DNA of 64,000 nt from Thysanoteuthis rhombus (taxonomy: Eukaryota; Mollusca; Cephalopoda; Oegopsida; Thysanoteuthidae): the NCBI GenBank assembly GCA_963457665.1, contig OY735222.1, forward strand, positions 39,293,908 to 39,357,907. Direction: 5' to 3'. A program made the position numbers and the translations under genes. Below the pieces are notes generated by a model. That model saw only the letters and a program-made list of their open reading frames with translations. It did not search any database and was not told where the DNA came from. Positions 25,564 to 35,796 of this stretch are shown here, piece after piece; within the stretch, counting starts at the first letter, position 1, and every line of letters begins with the position of its first letter.

Positions 25564-25728
25564 CGGGGGTGAGCGCGGACGCAGACCCCCACACTTAGAA
25601 ATAGCGTGTCCGAGTCGCTCACATTTGGAGCGATCGCAGAGGTCAGCCCAACCGAAGTGCAATGGAAGGGCCTCACTCTGGAAGAACGGCCTTACTGATC
25701 ACCGTTGACTTCTACACCAGGTAAGTAT
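25564..25728 (-). ncRNA. U1 snRNA-like sequence, 165 nt
   Basis: U1 pairs with 5' splice sites. Read on the minus strand from 25728, the sequence starts ATACTTACCTGG, the exact splice-site-recognition end of U1. It continues through all expected parts: stem-loop I with loop GATCAGTAAGG; stem-loop II with CCATTGCACTTCGG (the U1A-binding loop of the family is AUUGCACUCC); 'TGACCTCTGCGAT'; stem-loop III with CCAAATGTGAGCGACTCG; an Sm-site-like TATTTCTAAG; and a terminal GC-rich hairpin, GGGGGTCTGCGTCCGCGCTCACCCCC. The length matches the family (about 164 nt). The stem-loop I loop differs at two positions from the conserved GAUCACGAAGG, and the Sm-like site is weak, so function is uncertain. The LINE ends immediately upstream, so its own promoter is displaced. 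Confidence 0.9.
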
Positions 25729-25729
25729 A
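25712..25729 (-). repeat. 3' target-site duplication of the LINE (U1 nt 1-17 plus one base)
   Basis: The 18 bases ctacaccaggtaagtata are identical to 32480-32497. This copy is contiguous with the remainder of U1. Confidence 0.8.
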
Positions 25730-26157
25730 TTATTTATTTCCTGAAAGGAAGAAAAAAAATTACAGGCTTCCCTCACAGGAAAATCGGACACGCGGTCCAA
25801 TAGGGGAGTGGGGAAGGTTTTTGGTCATCACTATCTTAACTTTAAACTTAGCTAGTCTCATTTACTGACCCGTTCGTACAAACATTGTTCCTTTCACCAT
25901 AACATCTCATTTATTCAAAAAAGAAAATCTTTCTTACTTCTATCACCAAAATACCGCATGTTCTCTGTGTAATTTCTAACTAAAGGTTTTTATATACAAT
26001 TTTATTGAGGGGAGGGCTGAGAATGTGAAAGTTGTACACTAAAAAGATTCTCAGATGAAAATGAACGTTAGTATGTCTGGATGACCCCCCTCAAATTCTA
26101 ATATGGCAGACAAAGCGAGTTAACCAGTCGAAAAAGTGGATGTGGGAGGAAAAAGTG

Positions 26158-26188
<31 letters not shown>

Positions 26189-26404
26189 ACCACGTCCGCC
26201 GGAGAACTCTGCTTTCTGTCATCTACCCGGGGGAGGGGAAGGGGAATGTTAAAAATAAAAAAAGGGGGACTAAAAAAAACAAAAACAGGCCGATGATCAT
26301 TCGCTCTCTAGCTAAGTTAAACCAGCTTAACAAAAGAAAATGTGACTTATTCTACCTTAATCTGGGCTGGGTTGACACATTTTTTTCCGGTTCTCAAAAT
26401 TCTT
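25730..26404 (-). other. LINE 3' region
   Basis: No open frame. It contains an A run of about 30 at 26158-26187, which is poly-T in the sense of the element, so this is not a poly-A tail. The sense end near U1 reads 'CTTCCTTTCAGGAAATAAAT'. I see no poly-A tail or microsatellite tail at the junction. Confidence 0.55.
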
Positions 26405-29400
26405 TTAACCAGTCACTTCTAAATGCCACTCAATTTTCGCATCTATTTCTCTACACAATCGCGCACAATTCACCCACCTTTCGTTGAACTCCGACGAGGA
26501 GAGCCGTAACCTCTCGGCCTTGATTTTCACTTTAAGCTGATGTTTAAAAAAAACAATCAGTTGGCCGGAGGAAAAGCGCTCGCCCCCGTGAAATTCCTTC
26601 TGTCTCGTCGTCCAAACCACGACTCTCATAATGCTAAGTAAGCACTTTAGAATATAAAATTCTATTTTTCCTAGCGACAGTATTACATTACTGCACACGG
26701 CGCTGGCATCCAAGGCAAAAAAAGGTTTGCGGAGGGCGCGAACCATGTAGTCTTCAATCAGTCCACACAACGGGCGTACGACACTGCAGTGAAAGAAGGC
26801 GTGCTCAAGAGACTCCTCCAGGTCACCGCAGCGAACGCATTCTGGCGAATCTACCAGTCCCGCTGCGAACAACCGCTTGCCGACCCAGAGCGCGTTCCGA
26901 ATGACTAGCCAGGAGAGTGATGCCTCGTTGTTGTTGAGACATTTCATCCCGGGAGCCCAAGGCCACAGCGAGCGACCCTCTCCCTTCGACAGACCCAGCT
27001 CCCCGATCAGATCGTCTCGGACGGTCCCCCCGACTATTTCCTGATATAATATCTTCCTCGACAACGGTCGGGTTTCAGGTAGGCCTTCCTTTACCCGTGA
27101 GAAGACCCTCAGAGCTTGTCGACATTCGCGGTAGAAGGAGCATTCGTTTCGGGGTACACGGCGGGCCTCTCCCCTATCCGAACGCACGCTTCTCAAGGCC
27201 GGGAAGGCCTTCTTGGCGTCTTCTTTCCAGAAATCGCCGTTTCCTTCATTTGGTGTACACATCCGCTCTAGGAATTTTAACCGTAACGTATGTCGCCGAA
27301 TCTTAACGTTTGGCATTCCTAGACCGCCTTCAGATGGATGGAGCTGGCAGATCTCGCGACGTACCGTGGGTTGTCTGTGACCCCAGAGGAGTCTGAACAG
27401 AGCAGCCTCTAGCTTAGCTAGCTGGGTAGACGGGAGAGGAAGTACAGAGAGTCGGTAAAGAATGAGGGGGTAAATATGCGAAGCGGACACCTCCGCCCTC
27501 CCCTTCAAGGAAAGATTCCTTCGACTCCACACCTTAACTGTTTCGTCGACCTTCTCCTGCACCTCCGACCAATTTTTCTCCAGCTGAAGGCCAGGACCGA
27601 ACCAGACGCCGAGTATCTGGCAAGGCCCGTCCGTCCAGCTAAAGGGACCCGGCAGAGGACAACCTCTCCACGCGCCCAGCCGTAAGCCTTCAGACTTACG
27701 GCAGTTGGTTTTAGCGCCTGCCACTGTCTCATACTTTCTGATTTCTTTGCTGACTTCCATAATCTCGGCATTGCTCGCTACAAGCAAAGTTATGTCGTCA
27801 ACATAAGCGGTGTATCTGGCTGAGATGTTGGCACCAGGTAAGCTTATTCCGCTTAGGACCGGGTTCGCCTTCAAATTGCGTAGGAACGGTTCCAACGCAA
27901 GAACATAAAGCATCGGCGAAAGTGGACAACCTTGACGGACTGATCTAGATAGACTGAAAGGCTTCGACTTGACTCCATTCACTTCCACTATAGCACTGGG
28001 AGACGCATACAGGATGTGTATCCAGGAGCGAAAGTCCTGGCCGAAGCCAGCCGCAGACAAGATGGACTCCAGAAAACGATGGTCAACCCTATCGAAAGCC
28101 TTGGACTGATCTAATTTGATCAGCGCGGCTCCATTGTCGACTTTCTCGACGATCGTGCGCACCAGATGCAGATTATCTTGGATAGTCCTCCCCTTAACAG
28201 AACATGTCTGTTCGGGGCCAATCAGACTAGCCAGCACAGTCTGCAAACGGTTCGACAGGATCTTGGCCAAAATCTTTAACTCTGTGTTCAACATAGTTAA
28301 GGGCCTAAAATTGTCTACCCCGTCCCCTCCATCTTTGTCCTTGCGCAGCAATTTCACCACACCCCTGCTAAAGCGTTGGGGAATGCTCCCCTGCTTTAAC
28401 CAGTGGTTGAACATCACTGTTAGCAGATGGACGAAGATGGGCGACAGCCTCAAGTACAATTCGTATGGCAGACCGTCGATCCCCGGAGTCTTCTCCTTTC
28501 CGACGGTACTAAGCGCCACCTGGACCTCCACCTCTGTAATGAGCCCCTCGCACCTAGCCGTTTCAGTCGCATCGAGGCGAGGGAAATCGGCCAAATAGGC
28601 GTCGAACTGAGCCGAGCTCAGACCAGGCTCCCTAGTGAAAAGCTGCTGAAAGTAAGAGCGAAAAACCTCGCAGACACCTCCGTTTGTGGTCACGTGTCGT
28701 CCATCCGGTGATGTGACTCTAGCGATATGTCGACTCGAAGCATTCTGAGTTTCTTCTGCGCGCAGTTCTGCGGCCATATTCGTCGCCTCGGGAGACATTC
28801 TTTTTAACTTAGATCTAACTACCAGAGCTTGATCCTTTTTGATAAGCAAAGAGGCCAGCTCTGCTTTAGCTATGACTGTTTCAGCCGCATCTCCGCTACG
28901 TACAGCCTCATCTAAGCGGCTTTCCAATGTCGTTCGTGCCGCTACTCTATTTAAATTGAGTCTTTTACTATAGTCGGCAGCAAACGACCTAATCTTATCT
29001 TTTAGACTGCCCCACCATTTATTTCCTACTACTGAACCAGTTAGTTCCTTTAATATTAGTAATGTTAACTGGTCTCGAAAGTCCCTCTCGTCCAGTAAAG
29101 ATGAGTTGAACTTCCAATATCCAGTCATTTTAATTTTAGGTCTACCTAGATTTACCCGGACCCTCACTAGTCTATGATCCGAATAATTTACATCATGAAA
29201 ACTTGGACACTCTAACAAGCCTACGTCGACTCTCTTAACTAATACCCGGTCGATGTAACTATAGCGTTGCATCGAGTTCGGGTTGCCTCTAGCAGTCCAA
29301 GTCCATACTATTTTAGAGGGGTGCTCGCTTCGGAACTTGTCGACTAGGTCTAGCCTGTCGATCAGGTTTCGAAACGGAGTCACGTCTTGGTTAGTAGCGT

Positions 29401-29866
29401 TATTCCTATTCTCTTGTCTATCTAAATCGGGATCAAGGACGGCATTCCAATCTCCCGCTAGAATTACCCGTTTCGACGTCGTCACGAAGGGCTCGATCCG
29501 CCGAAAAAAAGTGGCTCGCTCGGCCTGGTTATTGGGCCCATAAACCCCAATCAATCGAAACTCGTCACTTTTTATGGTAACGTCCAACACACACAATCTG
29601 CCTGCCAGGTCGGCGTAAGCAAGGGAACACGTCGCATTCAAAGATCGGCTTACTAGCCAAGAAACACCTCTCGCACGACTATTAAAACATGCTGAGAAAA
29701 GACGAAACTTTTTACTCAGTACGTTCTCATAGTCGGCCAAAGTAAAGTGTGTCTCTTGCACACAACATATATTCACTCCCAAGTGCTGAAGATTACGAAC
29801 GAGTTTAGTTCTTTTACTCTCGTTCCTCAGCCCTTGGCCATTTACACTTGCTAAAAAGAGAGCCAT
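26405..29866 (-). CDS. LINE ORF2: endonuclease-reverse transcriptase, 1153 aa
   Basis: This protein nicks the target and copies element RNA at the nick. The N-terminal apurinic-type endonuclease shows SVNGQGLRN (about 8-15), CVQETH with Glu38, LAGDWNAVLD with Asp139 and Asn141, YSYIDRVLV (202-210) and the closing YSDHRLV (Asp230, His231), so all catalytic positions are filled. The reverse transcriptase follows: KTPGIDGLPYELY (459-471), NFRPLTMLNTELKILAKIL (519-537), CSVKGRTIQDNLHL (555-568), ALIKLDQSKAFDRVDH (581-596, Asp586), SVRQGCPLSP (642-651) and AYVDD (687-691). A C-terminal knuckle CVRCGDLEESLEHAFFHC spans about 1010-1027. The pattern and length fit the L1/Tx1 group; neither an RNase H domain nor an RLE-type nuclease is seen. 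The ATG at 29866 lies 8 nt past the ORF1 stop in another frame (TAG-ACGGATAA-ATG), which suggests translation by reinitiation. No stop or frameshift is present. Confidence 0.93.
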   Translation of the reverse strand: MALFLASVNGQGLRNESKRTKLVRNLQHLGVNICCVQETHFTLADYENVLSKKFRLFSACFNSRARGVSWLVSRSLNATCSLAYADLAGRLCVLDVTIKSDEFRLIGVYGPNNQAERATFFRRIEPFVTTSKRVILAGDWNAVLDPDLDRQENRNNATNQDVTPFRNLIDRLDLVDKFRSEHPSKIVWTWTARGNPNSMQRYSYIDRVLVKRVDVGLLECPSFHDVNYSDHRLVRVRVNLGRPKIKMTGYWKFNSSLLDERDFRDQLTLLILKELTGSVVGNKWWGSLKDKIRSFAADYSKRLNLNRVAARTTLESRLDEAVRSGDAAETVIAKAELASLLIKKDQALVVRSKLKRMSPEATNMAAELRAEETQNASSRHIARVTSPDGRHVTTNGGVCEVFRSYFQQLFTREPGLSSAQFDAYLADFPRLDATETARCEGLITEVEVQVALSTVGKEKTPGIDGLPYELYLRLSPIFVHLLTVMFNHWLKQGSIPQRFSRGVVKLLRKDKDGGDGVDNFRPLTMLNTELKILAKILSNRLQTVLASLIGPEQTCSVKGRTIQDNLHLVRTIVEKVDNGAALIKLDQSKAFDRVDHRFLESILSAAGFGQDFRSWIHILYASPSAIVEVNGVKSKPFSLSRSVRQGCPLSPMLYVLALEPFLRNLKANPVLSGISLPGANISARYTAYVDDITLLVASNAEIMEVSKEIRKYETVAGAKTNCRKSEGLRLGAWRGCPLPGPFSWTDGPCQILGVWFGPGLQLEKNWSEVQEKVDETVKVWSRRNLSLKGRAEVSASHIYPLILYRLSVLPLPSTQLAKLEAALFRLLWGHRQPTVRREICQLHPSEGGLGMPNVKIRRHTLRLKFLERMCTPNEGNGDFWKEDAKKAFPALRSVRSDRGEARRVPRNECSFYRECRQALRVFSRVKEGLPETRPLSRKILYQEIVGGTVRDDLIGELGLSKGEGRSLWPWAPGMKCLNNNEASLSWLVIRNALWVGKRLFAAGLVDSPECVRCGDLEESLEHAFFHCSVVRPLCGLIEDYMVRALRKPFFALDASAVCSNVILSLGKIEFYILKCLLSIMRVVVWTTRQKEFHGGERFSSGQLIVFFKHQLKVKIKAERLRLSSSEFNERWVNCARLCREIDAKIEWHLEVTG

Positions 29867-29874
29867 TTATCCGT

Positions 29875-32067
29875 CTACTGGCGTTGAGAACCTGAAACGA
29901 ACATGTCGGGGGTCAGAACACCGATGGCCCGCCCCATTGACTCGTGACCCATTTCGGTCTTAATCTCTCCGTCATGGGACAAGCCACCGATGTGTCCTGG
30001 GAATGCTAGCTTAGCAGCCCTATAGAGGGAAGGGTGCATAAAAACCGGGGCCCTCCCAGCACAAAATTGTTCAAGTTTTTTTAATTTTTTATCCGTCCAA
30101 TCGGCCAGTGGGGGGGACATGTTGAAGGTGTTGTTAGCTTCCTTCAGCATGCTCCATACCTGTCGCGAACCGAGACCCGTTCTGACTACAGTCAGAACTC
30201 TGCCAGCCTTTGGATAGTTGGTAGGGTCCTCCACATTCTTATTGTCTGCCAATTTGAAATTGTGGAGGACTTTTAGTTCTTTCTGTGTTTTGACTGGTAG
30301 GTCGTTCTTTTCATGAATGTCCGGGTCAACGCGACATATGTCTCTCCCCCTTTTATATTTTGCTTTCGGTTCTTTTTTTTTCGGGGGTTCTTCTAGTGAG
30401 CCGCTGCCTACTGACGGGCTCCTGTGTCGTTTCGGTGCAGGTGTTTGTGTTGGAGTATGTGTTGGGGTAGATTGGGGAGGGGCAGAATCAGTTTCTTGTG
30501 CTGTTGTGGTAGGCAGCTTGAATGTCGGTGTTGTTATTTTTGGTGTTGTTTTTGTGCAGGGGATGGGACACACAGAAGTGCTAGGTTGGGGAGAGGAAAC
30601 ATTTTTGGGTGGTGTTGATTTGGTCGGAGTTTCTTTTTTTGCTGAAGGGGTTCCCCCCTCTGCTGGTCTATTTTTTTCTTTTTTCTTTTTTTTTTCTTTC
30701 AGTTGAGTTAGTAGTTTCTCGGCCATTTTGAATTTTTCTTTACCCGGACTAGCCCAACTGCCAACACGTTTAGCCCTGTCTGTGTATGTCTGTGGGGTCT
30801 CTCCTTTTTTTCTTTCTGGACTGTTGGTGTCAACCGGATTGGAAGGCTTTGGGGACTGAAGTACCGCTGTCTGGGCCTTCGTTCCGTCTTTTCCCACTAA
30901 CTGCCACTCTCCGTTTGTCTTCTCCTCAGTTGCCAACACTTTTTGTGGCGATGGAGTCGGACACTTGGGAGAGGGGGGGCGAAGATGCCCCCCTGTTGTC
31001 GACCTGATCTTTTTGGTCCCAGTTGTGGGCTGGTCTGTTATCGACCTCTTTTCTACAGAAGAGGCAGACGGGGGGGAATCATTATTTAGGTCTGCCTGAA
31101 TCAAAGGTGCCTTTTTACCTTTGCAAACAGCAGAGAGGTGACCAGTCTCTCCGCATAGCCAGCACACTGGTCGTCTGCCAGTAACAATTACTGGCATTTT
31201 CCGGCTCTCCACGTCTAAGCAGTTGGGAATGGAGGTGAAGGCTTTATATTCAACCATCAGGTCGAATCTCCATTCGCCACGCATTCGGTCAGAGGACACC
31301 GAGACAATGTCTCCGAACTGCAGAAAAAAGGCTCCTAAATGTTCCCCCAATACGAATGGGGGTACTTCAAATATTGTTACCCTGGTCCTTCTACGACCAA
31401 GGTATTCTACACGAAGGATATGGTCTTTGGTGTGTAATTCCTTTTTTGTCAGGTCTTTACAATCTTCCTCCGTGGGCAACAATACGTCCCAAAAGGCAAA
31501 ACCTCGTCCTCTTACAACTTGTTGGACTTTCACACCTAGCCCGGTCAGTGATTTAATCACTAGGTCTTTTGTGGATTTGACAATCTTTTTGGTTTTTCTG
31601 TCAACCACAAAGACAGACACCGTTCTCTTTTCGATATTCCTCAGTTCGGGCATATCTACAAGAAGGCCATCTTCTTTTACAAGATGTTCGTACTTCTTAC
31701 ATTTATCCACGAACTCTGCAATATCGTACATAAATGAAGGCGGGGATTTCCACTGGTTAGGAGAGTCCCCACTTGACTTTTTTTCTGTTTGTGTGTGTTC
31801 CCCCTGTTCGGGGCATGTGTCTTGTTTTAGTCTATCCCCCGTAACAAGGGGAGATTTTTCGTTTTTCTTTTCTTCAACTTTTTCGGGCGTACAAAATAAA
31901 GCCTTCATGGCCTTATTCACGTCCTCGGCCATTGTACAGGGCTCGAAAAAAGCTTGGCAGTGACTCAAATGTCCGGGTAAAATTCCGCCAGACTCGTTTT
32001 TTTTTTCGTCGACTTTTTCGGGCGTGCGAAATAAAGCCTTCATGGCCTTATTCACGTCCTCGGCCAT
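29875..32067 (-). CDS. LINE ORF1: RNA-binding protein with CCHC knuckle, 730 aa
   Basis: ORF1 proteins of LINEs coat the element RNA. Residues about 145-300 (from VSVFVVDRKTKKIVKST to the LGEHLGAFFLQFGDIVSVSS segment) look like one or two RRM-like folds, by position and pattern only. They are followed directly by a zinc knuckle, CWLCGETGHLSAVC (Cys302, Cys305, His310, Cys315; CX2CX4HX4C). The middle (about 325-560) is Pro/Ser/Thr/Lys-rich and probably disordered, with a lysine tract near 455-465. The C-terminal 150 residues look folded but I do not recognise them. The N-terminal 45 residues are a tandem duplicate of what follows: MAEDVNKAMKALF occurs at residues 1 and 46, so the original start may be the ATG at 31932. 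No stop or frameshift is present. Confidence 0.88.
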   Translation of the reverse strand: MAEDVNKAMKALFRTPEKVDEKKNESGGILPGHLSHCQAFFEPCTMAEDVNKAMKALFCTPEKVEEKKNEKSPLVTGDRLKQDTCPEQGEHTQTEKKSSGDSPNQWKSPPSFMYDIAEFVDKCKKYEHLVKEDGLLVDMPELRNIEKRTVSVFVVDRKTKKIVKSTKDLVIKSLTGLGVKVQQVVRGRGFAFWDVLLPTEEDCKDLTKKELHTKDHILRVEYLGRRRTRVTIFEVPPFVLGEHLGAFFLQFGDIVSVSSDRMRGEWRFDLMVEYKAFTSIPNCLDVESRKMPVIVTGRRPVCWLCGETGHLSAVCKGKKAPLIQADLNNDSPPSASSVEKRSITDQPTTGTKKIRSTTGGHLRPPSPKCPTPSPQKVLATEEKTNGEWQLVGKDGTKAQTAVLQSPKPSNPVDTNSPERKKGETPQTYTDRAKRVGSWASPGKEKFKMAEKLLTQLKEKKKKKEKNRPAEGGTPSAKKETPTKSTPPKNVSSPQPSTSVCPIPCTKTTPKITTPTFKLPTTTAQETDSAPPQSTPTHTPTQTPAPKRHRSPSVGSGSLEEPPKKKEPKAKYKRGRDICRVDPDIHEKNDLPVKTQKELKVLHNFKLADNKNVEDPTNYPKAGRVLTVVRTGLGSRQVWSMLKEANNTFNMSPPLADWTDKKLKKLEQFCAGRAPVFMHPSLYRAAKLAFPGHIGGLSHDGEIKTEMGHESMGRAIGVLTPDMFVSGSQRQ
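31900..32067 (-). repeat. 104-bp duplication at the ORF1 start
   Basis: The block containing the start codon (31900-31963) is repeated at 32004-32067 with two or three differences, including the 'ccattgtacagggct' / 'ccattatacagggct' start context. The spacer (31964-32003) is itself a copy of the 5'-region segment 'agtgactcaaatgtccgggt'. The duplication stays in frame and lengthens ORF1 by about 45 residues. Confidence 0.85.
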
Positions 32068-32118
32068 TATACAGGGCTAAGATGGGGTAAATAAAATTGA
32101 AAATAAAATTGTTTTGGG

Positions 32119-32149
<31 letters not shown>

Positions 32150-32479
32150 CCCACCTCGAAAAAAGCTTGGCAGTGACTCAAATGTCCGGGTAAAAATCCG
32201 CAAGACTCGTTTTTTTTTTTTTTTTTCTTTCTAATTTTTGGTCTTTCAAAATGGCACTATACGTCTTGCCTGAGCGTCAGTCAAAGGTTGGACTGGTCCA
32301 AAACAACCTGTGCCAAGTAAGTATATTATTTGTTTTGGTAGTGACTCGAATGTCCGGGTAAAAATCCGCGAGACTCGTTTTTTTTTCTTCTTATTTTTGG
32401 TCTTTCAAAATGGTACCGGAGAATGTCACCATACGTCTTGCCTGAGCGGCGGTCAAAGATTGGACTGGTCTAAAACAAC
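32068..32479 (-). promoter_or_regulatory. LINE 5' region with tandem monomers
   Basis: Two diverged tandem units start in sense orientation with GTTGTTTT(A/G)GACCAGTCCAA at 32479 and 32307 (172 bp apart). Each runs through 'CAGGCAAGACGTAT', 'CATTTTGAAAGACCAAAAAT', an A-rich run, and 'ACGAGTCT.GCGGATTTTTACCCGG'. Each unit is preceded by a U1 start. An A run of 29 (32119-32147) separates the inner unit from ORF1. Tandem 5' monomers often act as promoters in LINEs. Here the flanking U1 promoter could also drive the element. Confidence 0.6.
32308..32336 (-). pseudogene. Internal fragment of a U1 5' end
   Basis: Minus-strand reading from 32324 gives ATACTTACTTGGCACAG, 13 of 17 bases identical to U1 nt 1-17 at the outer junctions. 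It is preceded by AAAACAAATAAT, which matches the bases upstream of the complete U1 (AAATAAATAAT). It marks an older junction inside the 5' region. Confidence 0.7.
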
Positions 32480-32497
32480 CTACACCAGGTAAGTATA
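32480..32497 (-). repeat. 5' target-site duplication of the LINE (U1 nt 1-17 plus one base)
   Basis: Identical over 18 bases to 25712-25729. U1 homology stops exactly where the LINE starts (32479). Upstream (32498 onward) there is no similarity to the flanks of the other U1 copies. Confidence 0.8.
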
Positions 32498-34419: not shown

Positions 34420-34554
34420 CGGGTGGTGAATGCGAACGCAGACTCCCCCCCCAACACTTTGAGATGACGTGTATGTGTCGCTCACATTTGGAGAAATCGC
34501 AGAGGTCAACCTTGCTGGAGTGCAATCGAAGGGTCCCACCTTGAACGAAGGGTC
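34420..34554 (-). pseudogene. U1 snRNA pseudogene, 5'-truncated
   Basis: Minus-strand homology to U1 runs from the 3' hairpin (34420) through CCAAATGTGAGCGACAC, 'CGATTTCTC' and stem-loop II (CGATTGCACTCCAGC) into stem-loop I. It stops at 34554, so the splice-site-recognition end is missing. The Sm site is degraded. Confidence 0.85.
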
Positions 34555-35635: not shown

Positions 35636-35796
35636 ATGGGGATGGGTACGTCGCAGAACCCCAACATTTAGGAACTGCTTACCAATATCGTAGACATTTA
35701 AAGAGATCGTAGAGGTCAATCTTACGGGAATGCAATGAAAGGGTCCCAATCTGGACAAACGGTCTTACTGATCACCGTTCTACTCAAGGTAAGTAT
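35636..35796 (-). pseudogene. U1 snRNA pseudogene, nearly full length
   Basis: The sequence begins ATACTTACCTTGAGTAGAACGG on the minus strand. It keeps the variant stem-loop I loop GATCAGTAAG seen at 25.6 kb, but its stem-loop II, stem-loop III and Sm region are mutated (CTAAATG in place of an Sm site). Upstream of it, TGGAAATAAATATGC resembles the bases upstream of the U1 at 25.7 kb. Confidence 0.85.

Follow-up and report, generated by a model that had tools for sequence, protein, structure and literature searches.

The DNA analysed here, called the window, is a stretch of 64,000 nucleotides (nt) from the cephalopod Thysanoteuthis rhombus (assembly GCA_963457665.1, contig OY735222.1, positions 39,293,908 to 39,357,907, forward strand). 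It contains an intact long interspersed nuclear element (LINE) inserted in a gene for U1 small nuclear RNA (snRNA). Near-identical copies of this LINE (at least about 99%) also lie in genes for U4 snRNA and U3 small nucleolar RNA (snoRNA) and in two further multicopy, small-RNA-like gene families, C44 and C35, so that the U1 specificity proposed in an earlier note on this DNA is not supported. The features of the locus are the following.

25729..32479, minus strand: intact LINE, 6751 bp, 3' terminus GGAAATAAATAAT (from the duplicated target and the borders of other copies)
25564..25728, minus strand: complete U1 snRNA gene body, a variant copy, directly 3' of the LINE (Rfam RF00003)
25712..25728, minus strand: 3' copy of the target-site duplication, U1 nt 1-17 (ATACTTACCTGGTGTAG), the same variant as the 5' copy
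32480..32496, minus strand: 5' copy of the target-site duplication, U1 nt 1-17 (from sequence; 18 bp with the shared T at 32497)
32308..32324, minus strand: internal U1-like 17-mer ATACTTACTTGGCACAG at the boundary of two monomers of the 5' untranslated region (5'UTR) (from sequence)
29875..32067, minus strand: open reading frame (ORF) 1, 730 amino acids, with one CCHC-like knuckle (open frame)
26405..29866, minus strand: ORF2, 1153 amino acids, with apurinic/apyrimidinic (AP)-type endonuclease, reverse transcriptase and C-terminal zf-RVT (open frame and domain matches)

Borders and proteins of the element

The sequence at 25564-25728 covers the full RF00003 model (1-166) with 136.7 bits against a cut-off of 69.5, which bears out the complete U1 gene that, in the earlier note, adjoins the LINE on its 3' side. 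Read on the minus strand, the 5' junction is ...AATAGTT / ATACTTACCTGGTGTAG / GTTGTTTTAGACC... and the 3' junction ...GGAAATAAATAAT / ATACTTACCTGGTGTAG / AAGTCAACGG..., with nt 1 of U1 at 25728. Direct reading agreed with the note in that U1 nt 1-17 and one further base are repeated at the 5' end of the LINE, and that the likeness to U1 breaks off there at nt 17.

Both 17-nt copies in the window carry a TGTAG variant, while CACAG is found in 11 of the 12 other U1 genes read (L002, L003, L005-L007, L014, L016, L026 and L057-L059) and CATAG in the twelfth (L111). Because TGTAG is common to both copies and CACAG stands in 11 of the 12 other genes, the repeat is a true target-site duplication of the window's own U1 variant and no part of the element. 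Of the 15 other 5' regions fetched, 14 also contained the internal 17-mer ATACTTACTTGGCACAG, the fifteenth (L038) being 5'-truncated; the 17-mer reads CACAG (CACGG in one copy). We regard it as left over from a previous U1 insertion and now part of the element. The question whether the repeat belongs to the element itself is thereby divided: a diverged U1-like 17-mer does, whereas the TGTAG repeats come from the target, since the internal relic reads CACAG. Two decayed U1-like sequences at 34422-34552 and 35694-35796 lie in a local repeat near the LINE, with 74-77% identity to the window U1 and in the same orientation.

Domain matches of ORF2 were Exo_endo_phos, RVT_1 and zf-RVT, and its best PDB matches, at E 1.1e-69 and spanning residues 6-857, are to human LINE-1 ORF2p. 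The zf-CCHC match of ORF1 is weak, with 17.5 bits under a cut-off of 20.8. The layout is that of L1-type elements, with the AP endonuclease followed by the reverse transcriptase in ORF2 and ORF1 upstream; with both frames open and LINE-1 ORF2p as the top PDB match, the claim of an intact L1-type LINE holds. The Tx1 clade, in which Keno is placed, has an ORF1 with CCHC zinc knuckles, and the Tx1-clade trait of insertion into specific multicopy sequences is present here. At 31859-32078, the N-terminal region of ORF1 and segments of the 5'UTR are duplicated internally in the element.

Copies in the genome and their target genes

The search for ORF2 copies in the 2.73 Gb genome scored the best 40 of 17,392 candidates, among which 22 had all 1153 codons, 7 were partial or broken and 11 belonged to a 72%-identical sister family. 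The 22 full-ORF2 copies lie at most 36 of 3459 nt apart, with a mean of 19. Flanks on the 3' side were read at 30 fetched loci, L001 (the window) to L030. U1 follows directly in eight of them (L001, L002, L005, L006, L007, L014, L016 and L026), a short interspersed nuclear element (SINE) and then U1 in L003, and another element copy in L022. U4 was found in L008-L010 and U3 snoRNA in L013 (Rfam), the C44 gene in nine loci (L004, L011, L012, L015, L017-L020 and L029) with a partial match in L021, and the C35 gene in L023 and L024. L025, L027 and L028 had flanks without an assigned target, and L030 belongs to the sister family. Counted over the 22 full-ORF2 copies, nine are at U1 loci (seven directly, L003 via the SINE and L022 via a tandem element), three at U4, one at U3 and nine at C44, L021 included.

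The insertion leaves the whole RNA-coding sequence intact on its 3' side in U1 (Rfam 1-166) and U3 (1-219), which may limit the damage although the sequence is parted from its promoter. The U4 coding sequence is cut, with Rfam 18-138 remaining 3' of the element.

A pattern for the 5' end matched 43 times, with no match in the reversed control. The 43 are confined to contigs C27, C35, C42, C44, C46, C47 and C133; four were internal monomers, leaving 39 ends. The 39 ends read comprise 37 of these and two that the pattern had missed (L032 and L041), while L038, the 5' side of the 5'-truncated U4 insertion L009, is kept outside the 39. U1 nt 1-17 precede 17 of the 39 ends (two after another element and two after the SINE), so that insertion at U1 is recurrent; the insertion point at U1 nt 17/18 given in the earlier note is likewise supported. 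Three ends follow U4 sequence, one of them (L036) at a U1 locus, one follows U3, eight the C44 gene and six the C35 gene, three of the last directly after another element. In total, 35 of the 39 ends were at U1, U4, U3, C44 or C35 genes. The other four (L081-L084) belong to a repeated unit that carries a relic of U1 nt 8-17 and is placed about 775 bp from copies of the C35 gene, and no recognisably single-copy site occurred among the 39 ends read. A nearly identical upstream sequence is shared by L031, which is filled, and L059, an uninterrupted U1 gene, forming a natural filled/empty pair.

On the 5' side 17 ends join U1, whereas 13 of the 22 full-ORF2 copies lack a U1-type 3' flank. Copies at unrelated sites, which the note had named as what would refute it, do exist in part: other sites are used, but most of them are again in small-RNA-like genes. 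A strictly U1-specific LINE whose other sites are accidental would account for U1 being the commonest target and for the U1-like relic between the internal monomers. It is nevertheless very improbable, and in this strict form refuted, in view of those 13 copies, of the repeated hits at the same place of the C44 gene and of the U4, U3 and C35 sites with their duplications.

Host gene families

Among the 42 U1 matches listed (the best 42 of 41,871 candidates scored), seven directly abut the 3' end of the element. U4 genes, of which at least 42 matches were listed, include a 2.1 kb tandem array on C35 that holds three element copies, and one of the 27 U3 matches is abutted. The C44 gene marker AATCTTTTGGACCGGTG had 30 exact matches, all within 0.7 Mb (C44:35573115-36251348), seven of them abutted. 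The 21-mer marker of the C35 gene had 65 matches at no more than one mismatch, all on C35, and one match in the reversed control; 64 of the 65 fall within 0.22 Mb (C35:19459775-19672972) on both strands.

Both the C44 and the C35 gene have a hairpin and a AAAAACAGATT-like 3' box, which we take to resemble the 3'-box motif of snRNA genes; in the C44 gene the hairpin is at the 3' side, and the gene also has an expanded (ATTT)n stretch. Naming the two families by Rfam at lax thresholds returned chance-level matches only and was rejected. Motifs of the AAGGTCA/TGACCTT type occur near -235 to -275 in upstream flanks of U1, U4, C44 and C35, not in every copy. In a strict test, 8 of 16 flanks had the motif at -250 to -236, compared with a mean of 0.026 and a maximum of 2 in shuffles.

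Relics of former host genes

Copies in U4 carry CCTGACACAG, which is U1 nt 8-17 with one change, between target and body; because this is a relic of U1, their ancestor left a U1 gene. L007 lies at a U1 locus with its 3' end abutting U1, and its head consists of U1 nt 1-9 or 1-10, U4 nt 4-36 (counted from AGC) and CCTGACACAG. Its ORF2 is closest to the U4 copies L009 and L010 (4 differences), followed by L003 and L008 (5). Given this U4 head and the nearest ORF2 sequences, the source RNA of L007 most likely started at or near U4 +1. Copies in the C44 gene begin with GG, AATCATGCTTTAAGGATCC and TAA, with small changes in some, and AATCATGCTTTAAGGATCC corresponds to the 5' end of U3, altered at one or more positions; its junction with the body is the same as in the copy inserted in U3. 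ORF2 differences across targets amount to 3-36 of 3459 nt, and the target label requires 6 changes on the ORF2 tree against a minimum of 4. The host gene appears to have been switched repeatedly while divergence was about 1% or lower, namely from U1 to U4, from U4 to U1 and from U3 to C44.

Small-RNA pieces could also reach 5' ends by template switching or by RNA ligation onto U1, U3 or U4 RNA, as in human U6/L1 chimeras, and the consulted portion of PMC13174262 describes chimeras of L1 with U1-U6 and with U3. As an account of the present junctions this is extremely improbable: the 3' flanks are the remainder of the same gene, and the relic junctions match those of gene-inserted copies (L036 against L037 and L087; the C44 copies against L040).

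One or few insertions might instead have been multiplied passively with tandem gene arrays. The flanks of L011/L012 and L017/L018 are nearly identical (377/380 and 373/377), so that these pairs look like duplications, the flanks of L081-L084 are identical, and the U4 copies sit in the 2.1 kb array. Most C44 flank pairs, however, are 80-95% identical, compared with 99.3-99.7% for ORF2. Since the flanks have diverged by 5-20% and ORF2 by 0.3-0.7%, most C44 insertions look independent, with about seven at one gene position. The U1 copies are spread over several contigs and differ in the sequence that precedes them, and the ORFs are intact. Passive multiplication is contradicted for most C44 and U1 copies and may hold for the U4 copies; as a general explanation it is quite improbable.

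Dispersed element tails

The 20-mer at the 3' end of the element had 127 matches at no more than one mismatch and none in the reversed control. Twenty stretches with it were read, 13 of them dispersed, and 12 of these were element tails. L062 has only the 20-mer in common and was rejected as a tail and left out of the site count. Eight of the 12 tails lie at ATACT and nine at ATAC, and four (L061, L068, L075 and L079) are evidently short fragments, each with a duplication of its own (8-14 bp). Most dispersed tails read TGGGAGG at a position where the cluster copies read TGTGAGG, and they may belong to another subfamily.

These tails favour a reading in which a loose endonuclease with a preference near ATACT inserts anywhere, but only those insertions that land in small-RNA genes gain a promoter and give rise to new full-length copies, so that the association would stem from later selection and not from aiming. 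By itself, though, it leaves unexplained the approximately seven apparently independent insertions at one C44 position as well as the seven U1 genes, among the 42 listed, that carry the insertion at one and the same base, and its evidence comes from tails with the diagnostic difference, which may stem from that other subfamily. We regard it as rather unlikely.

A companion SINE with a U1 head

A SINE unit of 352 bp with the tail GTGATTAAATA lies between L003 and its U1 gene (region L003:5638-6004). At least 47 matches were found (40 of 3538 candidates scored), dispersed and with 82-100% identity; a fragment of 43 bp is among them. The SINE abuts 3 of the 42 listed U1 genes. Ten stretches were read (L102-L111), one of which is at a U1 gene (L111). 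Seven of the nine others begin with U1 nt 1-15 or 1-17, while L105 and L110 start within this head. Duplicated flanks outside the U1 head are clear in L104, L108 and L109, and three stretches hold tandem dimers with a U1 17-mer between the units. Because the U1 head sits inside the duplicated flanks, the SINE RNA most likely starts at U1 +1, and this SINE, headed by U1 nt 1-17, behaves like the LINE. A U2-like part shares an exact run of 18 nt with a U2 gene, although its gapped score of 40 stays below the 43 of the best shuffle; a U4-like part (score 40, shuffled maximum 42) was dropped.

U1 or U2 heads have reportedly been added repeatedly to SINEs in the crocodilian SINEU / Tx1-Mar system, where a Mariner element is reported to be the preferred site of SINEU. 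The present SINE is likewise U1-headed, before its U2-like stretch. Some of its copies, by contrast, occupy U1 genes, at the very position that an autonomous LINE also uses. A LINE moving among such genes would also offer a concrete route for snRNA-headed SINEs to acquire their heads.

Proposed mechanism

We propose, with a probability of about 80%, that the element is a LINE of multicopy small nuclear and nucleolar RNA genes that is transcribed from the promoter of each host gene and has recently been switching among them. The nick on the antisense strand would fall at the start of the RNA gene or close to it (U1 +1, the 5' end of U3, about nt 18 of U4), where the sense strand reads ATAC or ATC. 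Reverse transcription would be primed at the nick, and a second cut some 15-20 nt downstream would yield the target-site duplication. The host promoter and the first 17 or so nt of the RNA would end up directly upstream of the element, which would be transcribed from this captured promoter. Its RNA would start in or near the start of the RNA gene itself, as the relics of RNA 5' ends in the copies suggest. On return to the same gene the borrowed head would be invisible, whereas on entry into another small-RNA gene it would stay as a relic at the 5' junction.

Several observations weigh against this proposal. Two of the 39 pattern-found 5' ends fell outside the reading set, the unit around L081-L084 is itself no recognised gene, the U1 junction of L014 is altered (ATAATATACCTGG), and the 5' end of L009 (L038) differs in that U4 sequence runs into a T-rich part of the 5'UTR. 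No Rfam family was matched by the C44 and C35 genes, which are called small-RNA-like from their copy number, hairpin, 3'-box-like AAAAACAGATT and shared upstream motif. The motif test was framed post hoc on flanks of which several are near-duplicates, the motif has opposite orientations in U1 and C44, and the U3 flank, the flank of the window's own copy and some U1, U4 and C44 flanks lack the exact 7-mer. With 14 of 20 inner branches open, the ORF2 tree is poorly resolved, gene conversion among the elements might have made ORF2 less divergent than the flanks, and the three U4 copies may be array duplicates. The junctions, duplications, relics, intact ORFs and near-identity across targets were observed directly; promoter use, the exact RNA start and the way in which the genes are recognised we infer from them.

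The proposal does not choose between recognition through DNA sequence, recognition through promoter machinery, and loose nicking on which selection then acts. A tentative extension, somewhat doubtful in our view, is that the LINE recognises a class of gene, the start of RNA polymerase II snRNA-type genes, through the promoter or transcription machinery. The host promoter would then be its only full promoter, and the snRNA 5' end an exchangeable head that guides its return and records changes of host. If this were true, C44 (30 exact matches) and C35 (65) would be undescribed families of snRNA-type genes.

Relation to known elements

Site-specific LINEs are usually described as bound to one target. 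Here, a young lineage with intact ORFs appears to be in the course of moving between host genes (U1, U4, U3 and other small-RNA-like ones), and its relics order the jumps. One genome thus lets two questions be tested: how target specificity changes, and whether such LINEs depend on the promoter of the gene they invade.

In the excerpt of PMC4640811 (2015) consulted, the only snRNA-gene elements listed are Keno and Utopia (both U2), Dada-U1 and Dada-U6. No LINE targeting U1, U4 or U3 was found among the titles and abstract openings listed for the open-access literature, a search whose scope excludes Repbase and subscription papers and leaves absence unproven. Keno, according to the same excerpt, is likewise an AP-endonuclease LINE in an snRNA gene, but its target is U2, while the present LINE is found in U1, U4, U3, C44 and C35 genes; Rfam scans of the window and L002-L041 gave no U2 match. 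Utopia resembles the present LINE in its snRNA-gene target and tandem insertions but is given a restriction-like endonuclease in the excerpt, in contrast to the AP type (Exo_endo_phos) found here. Dada-U1 also sits in U1 genes; from what was available of PMC3706591, it is a DDE transposon with a duplication of 6-8 bp (CTGCGAAT/C) at another U1 position, whereas the present element has a reverse transcriptase.

Homology to human LINE-1 ORF2p is detectable over the 6-857 residue range. L1 is not known for gene specificity. The consulted portion of PMC13174262 gives TT/AAAA as the site favoured by L1, whereas the present LINE has a zf-RVT C-terminus and target genes.

The sister LINE family

In the 3' flanks of the sister family, no convincing RNA family was found as a target. 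At the loci L046-L055, the ORF1 of another copy mostly comes next on the 3' side, forming head-to-tail arrays on C12, C38 and other contigs. In a single case, the sister-family copy L030 is inserted just upstream of a frame resembling a histone H4 variant (a likeness judged by eye) and a histone 3' stem-loop.

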